The notes under the pieces are model-generated. The model was not told the origin of the DNA. It made no database searches and saw nothing but the letters and a program-made list of their open reading frames with translations. From contig JAACFF010000015.1 in the NCBI GenBank assembly GCA_009937635.1, positions 1 through 36,261 of the forward strand: a stretch of 36,261 nucleotides of DNA. Direction: 5' to 3'. This document shows positions 3,059 to 9,311 of this stretch, one piece after another. Position 1 is the first letter of the stretch. The number at the start of each line of letters is the position of its first letter. The DNA is from Chloroflexota bacterium. GTDB lineage: Bacteria; Chloroflexota; Anaerolineae; Promineifilales; Promineifilaceae. The position numbers and the translations under genes were made by a program.

Positions 3059-3880
3059 TTAGGTGACTGGAACGAGTTGAGCAACGAACAGAGCATATCC
3101 CAGTTTGCCAGTGCGAACAGCTTCTTCCGCTGCTTTGGCCATTGATTTCGCTGTAGATATGTCAAACTGTTGAATTTCTTGTTTTCGTAGCTTTGACAAT
3201 AAATCAACCCCGATCAGTTTCCCTCGTATATCGTGTGCAAGCTCTTGCAGAACTTGATCGTGCACCTCATGATGCCGTAGCTTTAGACCTGCCTTGGCTA
3301 ATAATTCTACATATTCCATTGCCGGAAGTGCATCCTCGATGCAGGCGATCCAGGCCTCGAGGTTTTTTAATTGTGGAGGAATGGATCCGCTTCGGGTCAG
3401 ATCACTCAAGCCAATCTGGCCTCCCGGCTTGAGTACACGAGCGAATTCGGCCGCCGCCCGTTCTTTATGAGGAAATGTACAGAAAGCACATTCGCAAATC
3501 AAAGCGTCGAAGCTGTTATCGGCGAATGGTAACGTTTCCGCATCCGCAGCTTCAAAGCGTACGCTGCCGTCGAGTCCGAGCTCAGCAGTCCGTACGTTAG
3601 CAATCTTGACCGATTTTGGGCTATAGTCGATTCCTATTGCTTCGCAGCCGAAACGTCCAGCCAGGTACAACGTGCTTTCCCCGCGTCCGGAAGCAACGTC
3701 CAGCAGACGCTCCTCCTTTTGCAAATCCATAATTTCGCCTAACCTAGCGGTCAGTTCCAATCCACCTGGATGAAAGGAATCTCCCAAGAGCAGTCTAGGC
3801 CAGTCACTCTCGTAGAGGTTGGCGCAACAGGCTTTAACGAAATTGGAGTCAACAGTCGTTTGGTCGTAAAACATCATCAT
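3059..3880 (-). CDS. Class I SAM-dependent methyltransferase, ArsM-like
   Basis: This 273-residue protein has a Rossmann methyltransferase core: motif I LDVASGRGES at 60-69, the acidic IGIDYS strand at 82-87, and the RVLKPGGQIGLSD block at 148-160. An N-terminal extension carries adjacent Cys18-Cys19 and the sequence LLGDSFHPGG. Further cysteines sit at 129, 131 and 134, close to where arsenite methyltransferases carry a substrate-binding cysteine. The fold is certain; arsenic as substrate is only a possibility. The start overlaps the stop of the radical SAM gene by four bases (ATGA), so the two are translationally coupled and probably act on the same pathway. Three ATG codons follow one another at the start. 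It may methylate a product, intermediate or lipid made by its partner. Confidence 0.85.
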   Translation of the reverse strand: MMMFYDQTTVDSNFVKACCANLYESDWPRLLLGDSFHPGGLELTARLGEIMDLQKEERLLDVASGRGESTLYLAGRFGCEAIGIDYSPKSVKIANVRTAELGLDGSVRFEAADAETLPFADNSFDALICECAFCTFPHKERAAAEFARVLKPGGQIGLSDLTRSGSIPPQLKNLEAWIACIEDALPAMEYVELLAKAGLKLRHHEVHDQVLQELAHDIRGKLIGVDLLSKLRKQEIQQFDISTAKSMAKAAEEAVRTGKLGYALFVAQLVPVT

Positions 3881-5409
3881 TTGAATCGGCCGTTGCTCCC
3901 ATTTTCGCGTTGGCGCCGCCCAAATGAGAAGGTCAGAGGTGTGGGAGTAAAGGCTTCTCCACGAGCACGCGCTCTAGCCTGATCTCGCTGCCGTGCCGCC
4001 AATTGAACACGGGCCTGCTCTCGATAGCCGACATTATTGTAGGCACAGAATGGAACCTGTTTTCCATCCGGCAAGAGGATTTCTTTGCAACACTTCATCA
4101 AATTCTTCTGATTGAAAGTCCACGGATCCATGAAATCCTGGAACATGACCATGAAGATGCTCCCGGCCAGCGGACCGAGATCGATGTCTAGCCCACACGA
4201 GGCGCAGGATAGTGAGAATTCCTGGCTTGCCTTTTCAAAGCCAGGCACCGCTGAAGACGACCATAACCCTTCGATCGCAGATTGCACATCAGGAGCGATC
4301 CGTGGCAAGGCCCGGTTGCTTATGTAGTCGATATAATCATCTACATCCAGAACCCGAGTCAGAGGCAGAACCGTATCATCTTCGACGTAAGCATAGGTCA
4401 CCGAGTTACAAGTAGGGAAACAGCAAGGTACAGGAGCAAAATCGGACTGCATAAAAAGACCATCTGTCTGCTGTTCCAACAATCTGATCACATCGGGGAT
4501 GGTCATACGCTTTAACGGATCGTGCTGCATATGTCTGCCTGAGTGAAATGCAGGCTGGAAGTTAATGCCGAAGACAGCGGGGTGCTCCAGTCCAAAGCGG
4601 GTTATACGGCCGACCTCGTGGTCATTTACCCCTCGCTCAATCGCCGGCACCAAGACAACAGGGCATTTTACCTCAGCCAGCCGGTCGAGCGCGCGAATCT
4701 TTTCCGGTAGTAGAACTGGCTCACCGCGAATGCGACGATATGTTTCTTCCTCAAAACCATCGAACTGAAAATAGATCGCTGGCCGAATTTCCGCCAGCTC
4801 GGCCAATAATTCGTCGTCGTGGGCGATACGTTTGCCGTTCGTATTGATCATGATATGGCTGATATTGCGTTCCAGCGCTAAACGCATCATGGCTACCAGG
4901 TCAGGATGGATCGTTGGTTCTCCACCGGAGAACTGCAATACCTCGGGATTACCTTCTGTATCCACAAAATGGTCAAGAATGCCTTCTACATCTTCTAGGC
5001 TCAAATTGAAGCCCGCTCCGGCATCGGCGAAGCATAAGGGGCAGTCCATGTTACATGCCGAATTGACCTCAATAATGCCTACACAAGCGTGTTGTTGGTG
5101 ATCGGGACACAAACCGCAATCATGTGGACAGCCGTGGATCACCTCAGTGCTGTATTTGAGAGGAATAGTCCCCGGTTTGTTAAACCGCGCGGAATCAACA
5201 TAAGCTTGAGCATCCCCATAGATCAGCGCCTCAAATTGACCATGGTCTGGACAGCGCTTACGCATGTACACCTTATCGTCACGTAGAAGAACGTGCGCAT
5301 CCACCACCTGGCGGCATTCTGGACATATGCTTCGCGTTAATTCAAAAAAGACATGGTCTGCATACACCTTAGTTGGGGATGGAGCTAAATGGGACTGGAT
5401 TTCTTGCAT
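3877..5409 (-). CDS. Cysteine-rich radical SAM enzyme, MJ0619/tetraether lipid synthase type
   Basis: This 510-residue protein binds the radical SAM cluster through Cys119, Cys123 and Cys126 (CxxxCxxC) and shows the GGEP motif at 162-165. Additional cysteine sets are visible: Cys29/Cys32/Cys53, a rubredoxin-like site; Cys94/98/101/109 in a CPHDCGLCPDH block; Cys329/330/334; Cys402/405; and Cys440/441/455 with PFCAYNN. This set of sites is that of the MJ0619 family, which includes the archaeal tetraether lipid synthase Tes (three 4Fe-4S clusters plus a mononuclear iron). Bacterial members may join lipid tails, modify pterins or methylate unactivated carbons; substrate cannot be read here. GAGGAA precedes the ATG. 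The C-terminal tail is Arg/Gln-rich. The gene lies 68 bases after the small Cys-rich gene and overlaps the methyltransferase gene. Confidence 0.85.
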   Translation of the reverse strand: MQEIQSHLAPSPTKVYADHVFFELTRSICPECRQVVDAHVLLRDDKVYMRKRCPDHGQFEALIYGDAQAYVDSARFNKPGTIPLKYSTEVIHGCPHDCGLCPDHQQHACVGIIEVNSACNMDCPLCFADAGAGFNLSLEDVEGILDHFVDTEGNPEVLQFSGGEPTIHPDLVAMMRLALERNISHIMINTNGKRIAHDDELLAELAEIRPAIYFQFDGFEEETYRRIRGEPVLLPEKIRALDRLAEVKCPVVLVPAIERGVNDHEVGRITRFGLEHPAVFGINFQPAFHSGRHMQHDPLKRMTIPDVIRLLEQQTDGLFMQSDFAPVPCCFPTCNSVTYAYVEDDTVLPLTRVLDVDDYIDYISNRALPRIAPDVQSAIEGLWSSSAVPGFEKASQEFSLSCASCGLDIDLGPLAGSIFMVMFQDFMDPWTFNQKNLMKCCKEILLPDGKQVPFCAYNNVGYREQARVQLAARQRDQARARARGEAFTPTPLTFSFGRRQRENGSNGRFK

Positions 5410-5823: not shown

Positions 5824-7353
5824 TTAACTCTGATATATAATGGTTTCAGGCTTAAAAGCAGCCCAGGAGAACCAGAAATGATCTCCATGAACAAGGGGCT
5901 TCAGCGTCTGTCCGGCCAAGGGGCCATCAGTCGCCTGCCCAAGAATATTCCAGGTACTCCCAGTTTCGTCATCAACTATCTTCTCGTCTTCATAGCTGAA
6001 CGTCAGCTTCTGCCCTTCCAGGTTTGCATCAAAGACCCCGGTCGCGCCAACATCTTCAGCGAAGGCTATGATCTGTCCACCAAGTGCACTAGAAGTTCCA
6101 GGCTTGAAGAAGATCGCCATATCTTGCCCGCCCTGCTGGTCATTGATGACTGATACTTCTGACAATATGCTCAGCGGATAAGCAACATCGACTCCCGCAT
6201 CGGCCAAGGACACAGTAACAACCCTTTCAGCCGCGGGTAATCGGCCGTCTTGTTCTTGTTGAAGGAGCGCAATATTGCCGCCCGCCGTCAGGGGGCTATC
6301 GTAAGTATCGTAACCCGGATAAGGATTAATACCATAAGGTCTATCAAACCCTGTATCTTGCGACAACACCATTCCCGTTGGAAAAGCCTCTTTGAAATCG
6401 TCGAAACTGACCAGGGATGAGGCAAGGAACGTTAACTGTTGGCCAGCAAGATCCCCCACAATTCCTTCGCCTGTAAACTGCTGCCACAGACTCTCGGTCG
6501 TGCGATCATACATGACCAGGTCGGAGTTGCGCAGCAAGCCTGAAGTACCAAATTCATACGTTTCGCTATCCAGGCGACGATCGAAAACCAGAGCCGAATT
6601 ACAAAGGGGGCAAAATGTCACGATCACCGGCACCTCTCCTACGACATCATTGACGATCTCATGGAAGGTTAGGATTTGCAACGGGTATGCACGAACGTCT
6701 CCATAAATTTCCAGGACAATTACCGGCTCGTTGCCGATCAGCCATGAACCTGCCTCTTCAATCGTAACAAACATCGGATCATCTATTGACCTTATGCCAT
6801 CACGTGGTGGGCCTCCTGACAATAATTCCTCGTAGCTAATAGTATGCCGCTCCCAATTTGTATTCCAGTCCTCCGTCACAAACCTCAGGTCTTCGGGCCG
6901 GTCATCTTGTAAGAATATACCATCCTCGACAATGGGCTCTATTGTTTCCGTCGGTTGAACCTCCACAACAGGTTCCGGCGTTTCCGTCGATTGCTCCTCT
7001 ATTGCAGGTTCGGCCGTATTCTCGACAGCCGCTTCGGCCTCGCCGTCACCTGCATCCTCGCTCAACTCACCAACCCCAGTTTCCTCGCTGGAGGAAATAT
7101 CTTCCTCCGGAGTCGCAGTGGCGGTTGCTTCAATAACCTGCAATTCTTCAGGCTCTTCTGCGCTGGATACATCTTCAACTTCGGCCACAGATGGGGTTGA
7201 CTCCCCATCCTGCATTTCAGCTATAGACACTGCAGAATCACTATTGCCAATTGCTGGCTCCACACCTCCGGCAGCATTACAAGCCACCAAAAAAGCAGCG
7301 ACGAATAACAAGAACACCCAGAATGTATTCCGCTCTCTTATCCTTCCAATCAT
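5824..7353 (-). CDS. DUF3179 lipoprotein with long acidic linker
   Basis: This 509-residue protein has a lipoprotein signal: Arg-rich start, hydrophobic stretch at 11-23 and a lipobox ending in Cys25. Residues about 31-150 form a low-complexity linker of Glu, Thr, Ala, Pro and Val that likely tethers the domain away from the membrane. A DUF3179 domain follows (about 165-509) with the conserved CPLC motif at 248-251, WQQFTGEG near 290-297 and the YPGYDTYDSP block. DUF3179 has no established function; the CxxC suggests redox chemistry or metal binding outside the membrane. The gene diverges from a second DUF3179 gene at 7714 and is on the same strand, 70 bases from, the radical SAM cluster, so it may head that operon. 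Confidence 0.88.
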   Translation of the reverse strand: MIGRIRERNTFWVFLLFVAAFLVACNAAGGVEPAIGNSDSAVSIAEMQDGESTPSVAEVEDVSSAEEPEELQVIEATATATPEEDISSSEETGVGELSEDAGDGEAEAAVENTAEPAIEEQSTETPEPVVEVQPTETIEPIVEDGIFLQDDRPEDLRFVTEDWNTNWERHTISYEELLSGGPPRDGIRSIDDPMFVTIEEAGSWLIGNEPVIVLEIYGDVRAYPLQILTFHEIVNDVVGEVPVIVTFCPLCNSALVFDRRLDSETYEFGTSGLLRNSDLVMYDRTTESLWQQFTGEGIVGDLAGQQLTFLASSLVSFDDFKEAFPTGMVLSQDTGFDRPYGINPYPGYDTYDSPLTAGGNIALLQQEQDGRLPAAERVVTVSLADAGVDVAYPLSILSEVSVINDQQGGQDMAIFFKPGTSSALGGQIIAFAEDVGATGVFDANLEGQKLTFSYEDEKIVDDETGSTWNILGQATDGPLAGQTLKPLVHGDHFWFSWAAFKPETIIYQS

Positions 7354-7713: not shown

Positions 7714-8760
7714 ATGTGGCGTCGATCTTATTTGTTATTCCTAATCATGCTCACCGCCTGTACAGCAGCCGCTGAACCAGAAGGAGCCGGGACACATGTA
7801 TCTTCGACTATACTTGTGCCGACTCCGGGCATTGGGGAAGCGAGCACCCAAGAGCCAGATGATTCCCCTGCACCTATCAACCGGCGGATAATGATGGAAG
7901 ATAATTATTCGTTTAGCTTTATCCTTGGCTTTGACAGCATAAATCCGATCTATTCACCCGAATTTGCTCCAGCTTCGGAAGCACCGTTGGAAGATAAAGA
8001 GCTGGTACTAGGTGTCGCCTGGGATGGTGAAGTAAAAGCGTACCCGATTAGCGTGCTACGCTATCGAGAAATGGTTGACGATGAGCTCGCAGGTATCCCA
8101 ACCCTGGTCACTTGGTGACCGATATGCTACACCGGTCTCGTGCACGACCGGCGCATTGATGGCCAATCCCACACTTTCGGCAACGCAGGCAGCCTCTTCA
8201 TGAACGCTATGACTTGGTACGACCATGAAACCAAGTCGATCTGGTCGCAACCTTGGGGTCGTGCTCTTGACGGAGAGCTGAAAGGTGTGGAACTGTTTCT
8301 ACTGCCTTCACAGATATCCACCTGGGAGAGTTGGAAAGAAGCGCACCCCTATACTCTAGCCATGATTAGCGACGTTTCACGCGTAGGCGTTAGGCAGCGA
8401 TTTGATCCAGACTTTGTGATCGGGCTCCTCTTGGCCAATAAAGCCAAGGCTTTCTATTATCGCGATGTAGCCTCTGAAGTGATCCTGAATGATATGTTGG
8501 GTGATATCCCTATATTTGTGTGGGCGGCCGACGATCTTTACTATGCTTACGTTCGCCAAATCGACGAGCAAACACTCACTTTCAAGATTGAGAATGGTAT
8601 CTTAACCGATGCTGAGACGGGGTCAACCTGGGATCTCGATTTGGGTTTGGCTACGGAGGGGCCGCTCAAAGGAGCGTCTATGCAGCCAGTTCCAAGTTCA
8701 TCAGCTTACGATTGGGCCTGGCTTGACTTTTATCCTGAATCCGAAATCTACAAACCGTAA
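7714..8760 (+). CDS. DUF3179 lipoprotein with in-frame UGA at a conserved cysteine; candidate selenoprotein
   Basis: The frame runs 348 codons from ATG at 7714 to TAA at 8760, with a single interruption, TGA at 8116-8118 (codon 135). The first 134 codons give a lipoprotein signal (lipobox Cys16), a linker and the start of a DUF3179 domain; the next 213 codons continue the domain in the same frame without another stop. Around the interruption the sequence reads LVTW-UGA-PICYTGLVHDRR, matching VTFCPLCNSALVFDRR of the neighbouring paralogue (residues 246-260), so UGA replaces the first Cys of CxxC. A hairpin follows within 14 bases. I infer selenocysteine insertion giving UxxC. Alternatives are a nonsense mutation or a sequencing error turning TGC or TGT into TGA. 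UGA ends other genes here normally, so it is not reassigned genome-wide. Confidence 0.75.
8116..8162 (+). promoter_or_regulatory. Candidate bacterial SECIS element after the in-frame UGA
   Basis: Immediately after UGA the RNA can fold as stacked stems: CC/GG (8119-8120 with 8161-8162), AUGC/GCAU (8124-8127 with 8153-8156) and a perfect six-pair upper stem CCGGUC/GACCGG (8132-8137 with 8146-8151). The apical loop 8138-8145 starts 19 nucleotides after UGA. A further G8140-C8145 pair would leave a UC bulge and a UGCA loop with G in second place, similar to the bulged-U and loop-G features of known bacterial SECIS elements. The fit is good but was made by eye, without energy calculation. Confidence 0.5.
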
Positions 8761-8783: not shown

Positions 8784-8815
8784 TACAAAAGGGAGTTATA
8801 TTAGCCAACTTCCCT
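8784..8815 (-). terminator. Terminator of the hemW-ogt operon
   Basis: Read on the minus strand, GGGAAGTT pairs with AACTCCC (8807-8814 with 8791-8797, one bulged base), followed by TTTTGTATTG. The stem overlaps the ogt stop codon. It closes the minus-strand operon and lies against the end of the plus-strand DUF3179 gene, for which the T-tail is missing. Confidence 0.55.
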
Positions 8816-9311
8816 CTAGACGCAGGAGCCAGGCCTTTGTTTCCACGCCACCCGGCGCCGAAAATCCGTGTAGACGGCCGTCAGCACCGAGAACACGGTG
8901 ACAAGGGATGATGATCGGCATAGGGTTGGTAGCGTTAGCTCTTCCCACAGCGCGGACGGCTTTTGGTTTTCCCAGTTGCCGGGCAATATCACCATAAGTT
9001 CGCGTTCGACCATAATCGATCTCGGACACAACCTGCAACGCCTCTTGCTGAAAGGGCATCATAACCGACCAATCAATTGGCAGCTCGAATTGTTTCCGTT
9101 CCTTCCTAAAGTATTCTGTTAGCTGCTCGCTTACGGCTGTTAGCTGCTCAGGTGCATAAATGGGATCGGCTCCGGTCAGTCTTCGCACCTGATCGGTAAA
9201 GCGCTCCCTTTCGCCCCATAAATCCACCGCTACAAGACCGCCCTTATTTTGCGCAATCCAGATAACACCCAGCGGCGTATCCTTTATATCACCCATCCAT
9301 ATCGAACACAT
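8796..9311 (-). CDS. ogt: Methylated-DNA--protein-cysteine methyltransferase
   Basis: This 171-residue protein is predicted to repair O6-alkylguanine and O4-alkylthymine by transferring the alkyl group to its own cysteine. The C-terminal domain carries the helix-turn-helix and arginine finger region (about 101-125, including VGRANATNP) and the active-site PCHRV with Cys137. The N-terminal domain is the short Ogt type without the zinc-binding cysteines of Ada. The start is taken at ATG 9311; an internal Met6 is also possible. It is the last gene of the five-gene minus-strand operon, 33 bases after the RNA methyltransferase gene, and ends in a terminator. Confidence 0.93.
   Translation of the reverse strand: MCSIWMGDIKDTPLGVIWIAQNKGGLVAVDLWGERERFTDQVRRLTGADPIYAPEQLTAVSEQLTEYFRKERKQFELPIDWSVMMPFQQEALQVVSEIDYGRTRTYGDIARQLGKPKAVRAVGRANATNPMPIIIPCHRVLGADGRLHGFSAPGGVETKAWLLRLEGSWLI

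Follow-up and report, generated by a model that had tools for sequence, protein, structure and literature searches.

The gene at 7714-8760 on the forward strand of the window (the whole 36,261-nucleotide stretch analysed here, from Chloroflexota bacterium assembly GCA_009937635.1, contig JAACFF010000015.1) very probably encodes a full-length DUF3179 selenoprotein, in which an in-frame UGA would be decoded by SelB with the aid of a downstream stem-loop and whose product would be exported as a lipoprotein carrying a Sec135-Cys138 redox pair (Table 1). Comparison of sequences strongly supports selenocysteine (Sec) as the residue inserted at the UGA, and we infer both the export of the product and its thiol/selenol role from features of the translation. 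The initial annotation had proposed a selenoprotein family without any published member; this proposal falls, as DUF3179 (pfam11376, UxxC/T) is already a listed selenoprotein family in two reviews, PMC9312934 (2022) and PMC13188914 (2026), both of which credit Zhang and Gladyshev 2007 (doi 10.1093/nar/gkm514), a study on the Olavius algarvensis symbiont. As described in those reviews, the listed protein shares the Pfam family and the UxxC motif with the window gene, but it comes from the Olavius algarvensis symbiont, whereas the genes described here belong to several subfamilies in Chloroflexota. Within the open-access literature, what seems to be added here is the set of Chloroflexota Sec subfamilies, the covarying SECIS and the repeat architecture with its predicted Rieske-like fold, and of the three papers that a full-text search of that literature returned for DUF3179, none mentions Rieske; the apparent loss of a conserved His in the window's clade adds a further point.

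Table 1. Features of the DUF3179 locus, in window coordinates
Feature	Position	Strand	Detail or basis
Predicted DUF3179 selenoprotein gene	7714-8760	+	348 residues, Sec135; one in-frame TGA; PF11376 195 bits
Lipoprotein-like signal, ending LTAC (Cys16)	7714-7761	+	Read from the translation
Repeat 1 (about residues 97-203), carrying UxxC	8002-8322	+	AlphaFold2 secondary structure; hhalign against repeat 2
UGA, inferred Sec (residue 135), first UxxC position	8116-8118	+	51/52 family TGAs on this column
TGC, Cys138, second UxxC residue	8125-8127	+	Invariant in a 47-sequence alignment
Putative bSECIS hairpin	8132-8151	+	6-pair stem CCGGUC/GACCGG, loop UCGUGCAC, -9.5 kcal/mol
Apical-loop Val codon (GTG), frozen among Sec genes	8140-8142	+	Codon counts, Sec versus Cys genes
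Repeat 2 (about residues 235-336), without UxxC	8416-8721	+	AlphaFold2 model; hhalign; PDB structure rows
Cys-form DUF3179 paralogue, divergent to the Sec gene	5824-7353	-	VTFCPLC; PF11376 317 bits; lipoprotein-like LVAC

The in-frame UGA and its column in DUF3179 relatives

The translation has a single internal stop, TGA at codon 135, which stands in the context LVTW-UGA-PICYTG and is followed by 213 sense codons, compared with 11 and 14 stops downstream of the UGA in the other two frames. Its position on the first Cys of the CxxC motif, which the initial annotation had pointed out, is borne out by the translation and by VTFCPLC in the neighbouring paralogue, and so is the claim that the frame behind it remains open and keeps its domain. 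PF11376, a profile of 292 positions, matches the read-through product (E 2e-57; gathering cut-off 27 bits) in two stretches, profile positions 2-148 and 187-292, of which the better (residues 74-218) spans the UGA; the part of the profile between them is absent in the window's clade. Orthologues with the same UGA share 51-65% identity over most of the length, and in four close Sec-type orthologues the 217 codons that follow the UGA have dN/dS values of 0.14-0.28, and 80 codons preceding it have values of 0.08-0.15. The dN/dS of a decayed tail is expected to drift towards 1; judged by these ratios, the codons 3' of the UGA are under purifying selection. The other TGA-interrupted frames of the window, judged by eye, included no real candidate, and the NCBIfam models had no match to either of the window's two DUF3179 proteins.

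The window's genome and its relatives supplied a collection of DUF3179 genes, which were aligned against a profile made from Cys forms only; many of the loci were chosen for containing a stop, and the position of that stop was left free. On this alignment 51 of 52 in-frame TGAs shared a single column, that of the first CxxC Cys, while the DUF3179 segments held five TAGs, which were scattered, and no TAA. The residue at this column is Cys, Sec or, once, Tyr, and never Trp. A copy with the UGA is carried by all 12 loci from named Chloroflexi, Anaerolineae or Dehalococcoidia MAGs (41-67% identity), and a second DUF3179 gene of the window's own genome (G000:C641) reads VTWUPLC, with TGA at the same column. 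The homologue alignment that the initial annotation had proposed thus found both UGA and Cys at codon 135, and the concentration of TGAs on one column differs from the random stop codons elsewhere that it had named as counter-evidence. One stop in one MAG gene, viewed alone, would look just like a DUF3179 gene struck by a chance nonsense codon, whether through decay or through sequencing error. We regard this explanation as highly improbable, because the column specificity of the TGA across dozens of relatives refutes it in practice, and because both the low dN/dS after the UGA and the 213 open codons speak against it; in particular, the recurrence of TGA on the same codon in many separately assembled genomes makes a sequencing error very unlikely.

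A downstream hairpin and the selenocysteine machinery

Decoding of the UGA as Sec is also favoured by a tendency to form a hairpin 3' of the UGA, at a near-constant position, across 50 Sec-type genes. In 28 of them the loop is CGUGU, which starts 20 nt after the UGA and closes on a stem of at most seven pairs; in another 10, the group to which the window gene belongs, CGUGC lies within an 8-nt loop and the 6-pair stem pairs in every case; the remaining 12 have other loops. Over 25 distinct CGUGU-group sequences, 96% of stem cells pair; changes on both sides are seen in 12 cells, compared with 1.9 for shuffled sequences (0/500), and the values in slid controls are far lower. The stem of this group, which is homologous to the window's stem, covaries. 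In addition, of the genes with Val at the loop position, 39 of 43 in the Sec set encode it by GTG, as against 6 of 30 in the Cys set (p 6e-10), and GTG makes up only about a third of the Val codons further downstream; the p-values for the hairpin and the Val codon are over-optimistic given the kinship of the sequences, but the contrast is large. The folding of positions +13 to +42, measured against synonymous recodings, gave a mean z of -1.36 in Sec genes and -0.28 in Cys genes. In the published bSECIS model the loop lies 16-37 nt from the UGA and has a G among its first two positions. The window's hairpin fits this model in its distance from the UGA, but its loop carries the G at position 3, and the first-two rule can be accommodated only with a U-A pair and a bulged C. 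A strict ungapped bSECIS matcher found no match in the window's subfamily because the loop there has 8 nt with the G third; an Rfam scan of the window likewise returned no match.

ARAGORN found no tRNA in the window, and the genes required for Sec insertion occur in the same assembly: tRNA-Sec (71 bits), selB (343), selA (569) and selD (368) all score above curated cut-offs, in a MAG with 8% contamination whose Sec genes could in principle come from another organism. All four components for which the initial annotation had suggested a search (selA, selB, selC and selD) were therefore recovered. SelD is among the listed selenoprotein families, and the SelD of this genome is itself a selenoprotein, its gene (L026, G000:C617:5836-6768) having its own in-frame TGA in the context CAG-U-ASK. 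Across 71 genomes and among the matches listed, selA was above the cut-off in 27 of the 29 that carry a DUF3179 of Sec type (the other two are 78% and 82% complete) and was absent in 8 of the 42 showing only Cys types. Among the matches listed, none of the 21 Sec-type genomes that are at least 90% complete lacks selA, compared with those 8 of 42 (p = 0.04), a weak test because Sec use is common in the phylum. The wide presence of selA in Cys-only genomes too was counted against the Sec reading.

A frame that is open on both sides of the UGA is also what would be seen if the codon specified another residue, such as Trp under a variant code, or if it were simply leaky and read through without Sec. 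We give this very little credence: TGA is the terminal stop in 9 of the 30 listed window genes and is therefore a normal stop here, relatives have Cys and never Trp at the column, the genome encodes the Sec machinery, and the SECIS-like hairpin is under constraint. Under decoding as Sec, SelB carrying Sec-tRNA-Sec would recognise the stem-loop, and insertion of selenocysteine at the UGA would yield the full-length product, which would then be exported as a lipoprotein.

Predicted fold and redox role

The two halves of the DUF3179 protein are homologous (hhalign probability 99.8%, E 2.5e-29), and only the first contains CxxC. AlphaFold2 gave confident models (pLDDT 88.7 for the whole protein, 95.6 for half 1) of a beta-rich structure, and for each half every one of the best 50 PDB rows is a Rieske protein or a complex containing one; no thioredoxin entry is among the best PDB rows listed. 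The structural Z-scores reach at most 8.4 (over 98 residues) for half 1 and 8.3 for half 2, the aligned lengths being 92-98 residues, where values of about 8 are borderline by the tool's own note, and the Foldseek E-values are weak (0.008 and 0.77). Searching PDB sequences with the profile of the family gave no matches, a profile-profile comparison against 22 Rieske sequences indicated no Rieske relation, half 1 scanned against Pfam with a high E-value limit returned no Rieske match, and the cluster motif CxH...CxxH is absent from the window's DUF3179 protein. Each half (within 7921-8750) is thus likely to be Rieske-like in its modelled fold, without the cluster ligands, a view that we hold as not settled because the Foldseek values are weak, the Z-scores borderline and a profile relation absent. 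The comparison with Rieske ferredoxins accordingly combines a similar predicted fold in each half with the lack of CxH...CxxH and of sequence-profile similarity. UxxC is the redox motif of thioredoxin-fold selenoproteins, which the DUF3179 protein resembles in this motif but from which it differs in its beta-rich model and Rieske-like matches. We know of no Sec redox chemistry on a Rieske-like fold.

A protein of this kind could be a selenoprotein in which U/CxxC, together with a nearby His, forms a metal or Fe-S site descended from the Rieske cluster site instead of a thiol/selenol pair. The Rieske-like fold predicted for both halves would suit such a site, as would the His of the Cys forms, which lies 17 residues before CxxC, the same spacing as from CxH to CxxH in the genome's own Rieske protein (L183). 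However, this His is Arg in the window's clade, the sequence profiles reveal no Rieske relation, and the aligned ranges, on which alone this placement depends, have the Rieske domain aligning from model residue 36 and would put the CxxC (model residues 67-70) ahead of the cluster loops. We consider a metal site unlikely on balance. The equal spacing had also suggested that HE-x16-CPLC might be a Rieske CxH...CxxH in remodelled form, an idea that was rejected as unsupported by the structural alignment.

We favour a thiol/selenol pair, in which Sec135 and Cys138 would be the Sec counterpart of the CxxC in ordinary DUF3179 proteins and would form a selenenylsulfide when oxidised. The gene product would then act as a membrane-anchored extracytoplasmic oxidoreductase, with Sec135 and Cys138 cycling between the selenol/thiol and selenenylsulfide states. 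From the motif and the lipoprotein-like start, the role of extracytoplasmic thiol/selenol redox lipoprotein is probable.

Sec and Cys forms of DUF3179 in Chloroflexota

In a quick tree built from 43 Sec and 64 Cys sequences (107 in all), which does not fix the direction of change, at least four Sec/Cys changes fall on well-supported branches. The window's Sec clade has RE before the motif where nearly all Cys forms have HE, which by alignment indicates that this clade has lost an otherwise conserved His; His is replaced by Arg in 20 of 35 Sec genes versus 1 of 67 Cys genes. A link between Sec and this replacement was considered and set aside, as it is indistinguishable from a clade trait with only four independent pairs. 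In the window's clade about 213-219 codons follow the UGA; the second large group of Sec genes has about 240. More distant DUF3179-like UGA genes, in which the Pro after Sec is replaced (TGAGxx...), occur at L121, L122, L123, L124, L126, L127 and L128, some with a different loop, GGTCT, and look like separate Sec subfamilies. The DUF3179 gene at L113 (G412:C59), with YPLC at the Sec/Cys column and a TAG further downstream, is probably a decaying copy.

The Cys-form paralogue of the window shares with the Sec gene the domain, the two repeats and a lipoprotein-like start, and differs in having CxxC instead of UxxC, HE instead of RE and a Val codon without SECIS-like constraint. The divergent arrangement of a Sec gene and a Cys-form DUF3179 gene is found in the window and also at L151, L156 and L159. 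In a Dehalococcoidia MAG (L157, positions 5184 and 6382), a UGA copy and a Cys copy of the same DUF3179 subfamily lie about 1.2 kb apart on the same strand (+) and constitute a natural Sec/Cys pair. Elsewhere in the window, 3059-5409 (-) encodes a radical SAM protein that has a zinc ribbon of the HMPTM type (PF23545), and its gene probably forms one operon with a methyltransferase gene because the two overlap by four bases. An O6-methylguanine-DNA methyltransferase gene at 8796-9311 (-) is of the Cys form (PCHRV); a Sec form of this family is listed in reviews PMC9312934 and PMC13188914.

More broadly, we put forward tentatively, as a combination with somewhat less than even chances of holding in full, that DUF3179 is a tandemly repeated, cluster-less relative of the Rieske fold bearing a thiol/selenol pair, that it has undergone at least four Sec/Cys switches in Chloroflexota and that one of its Sec clades has lost the conserved His. 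Ordinary gene calling halts at the UGA, with the consequence that what is probably a recurrent redox lipoprotein would be truncated or labelled as broken in the Chloroflexota genomes described here. The natural Sec/Cys switches, including the Dehalococcoidia pair, provide a comparison set for what Sec gains, and the Rieske-like fold, if right, would offer a structural clue to a domain of unknown function.
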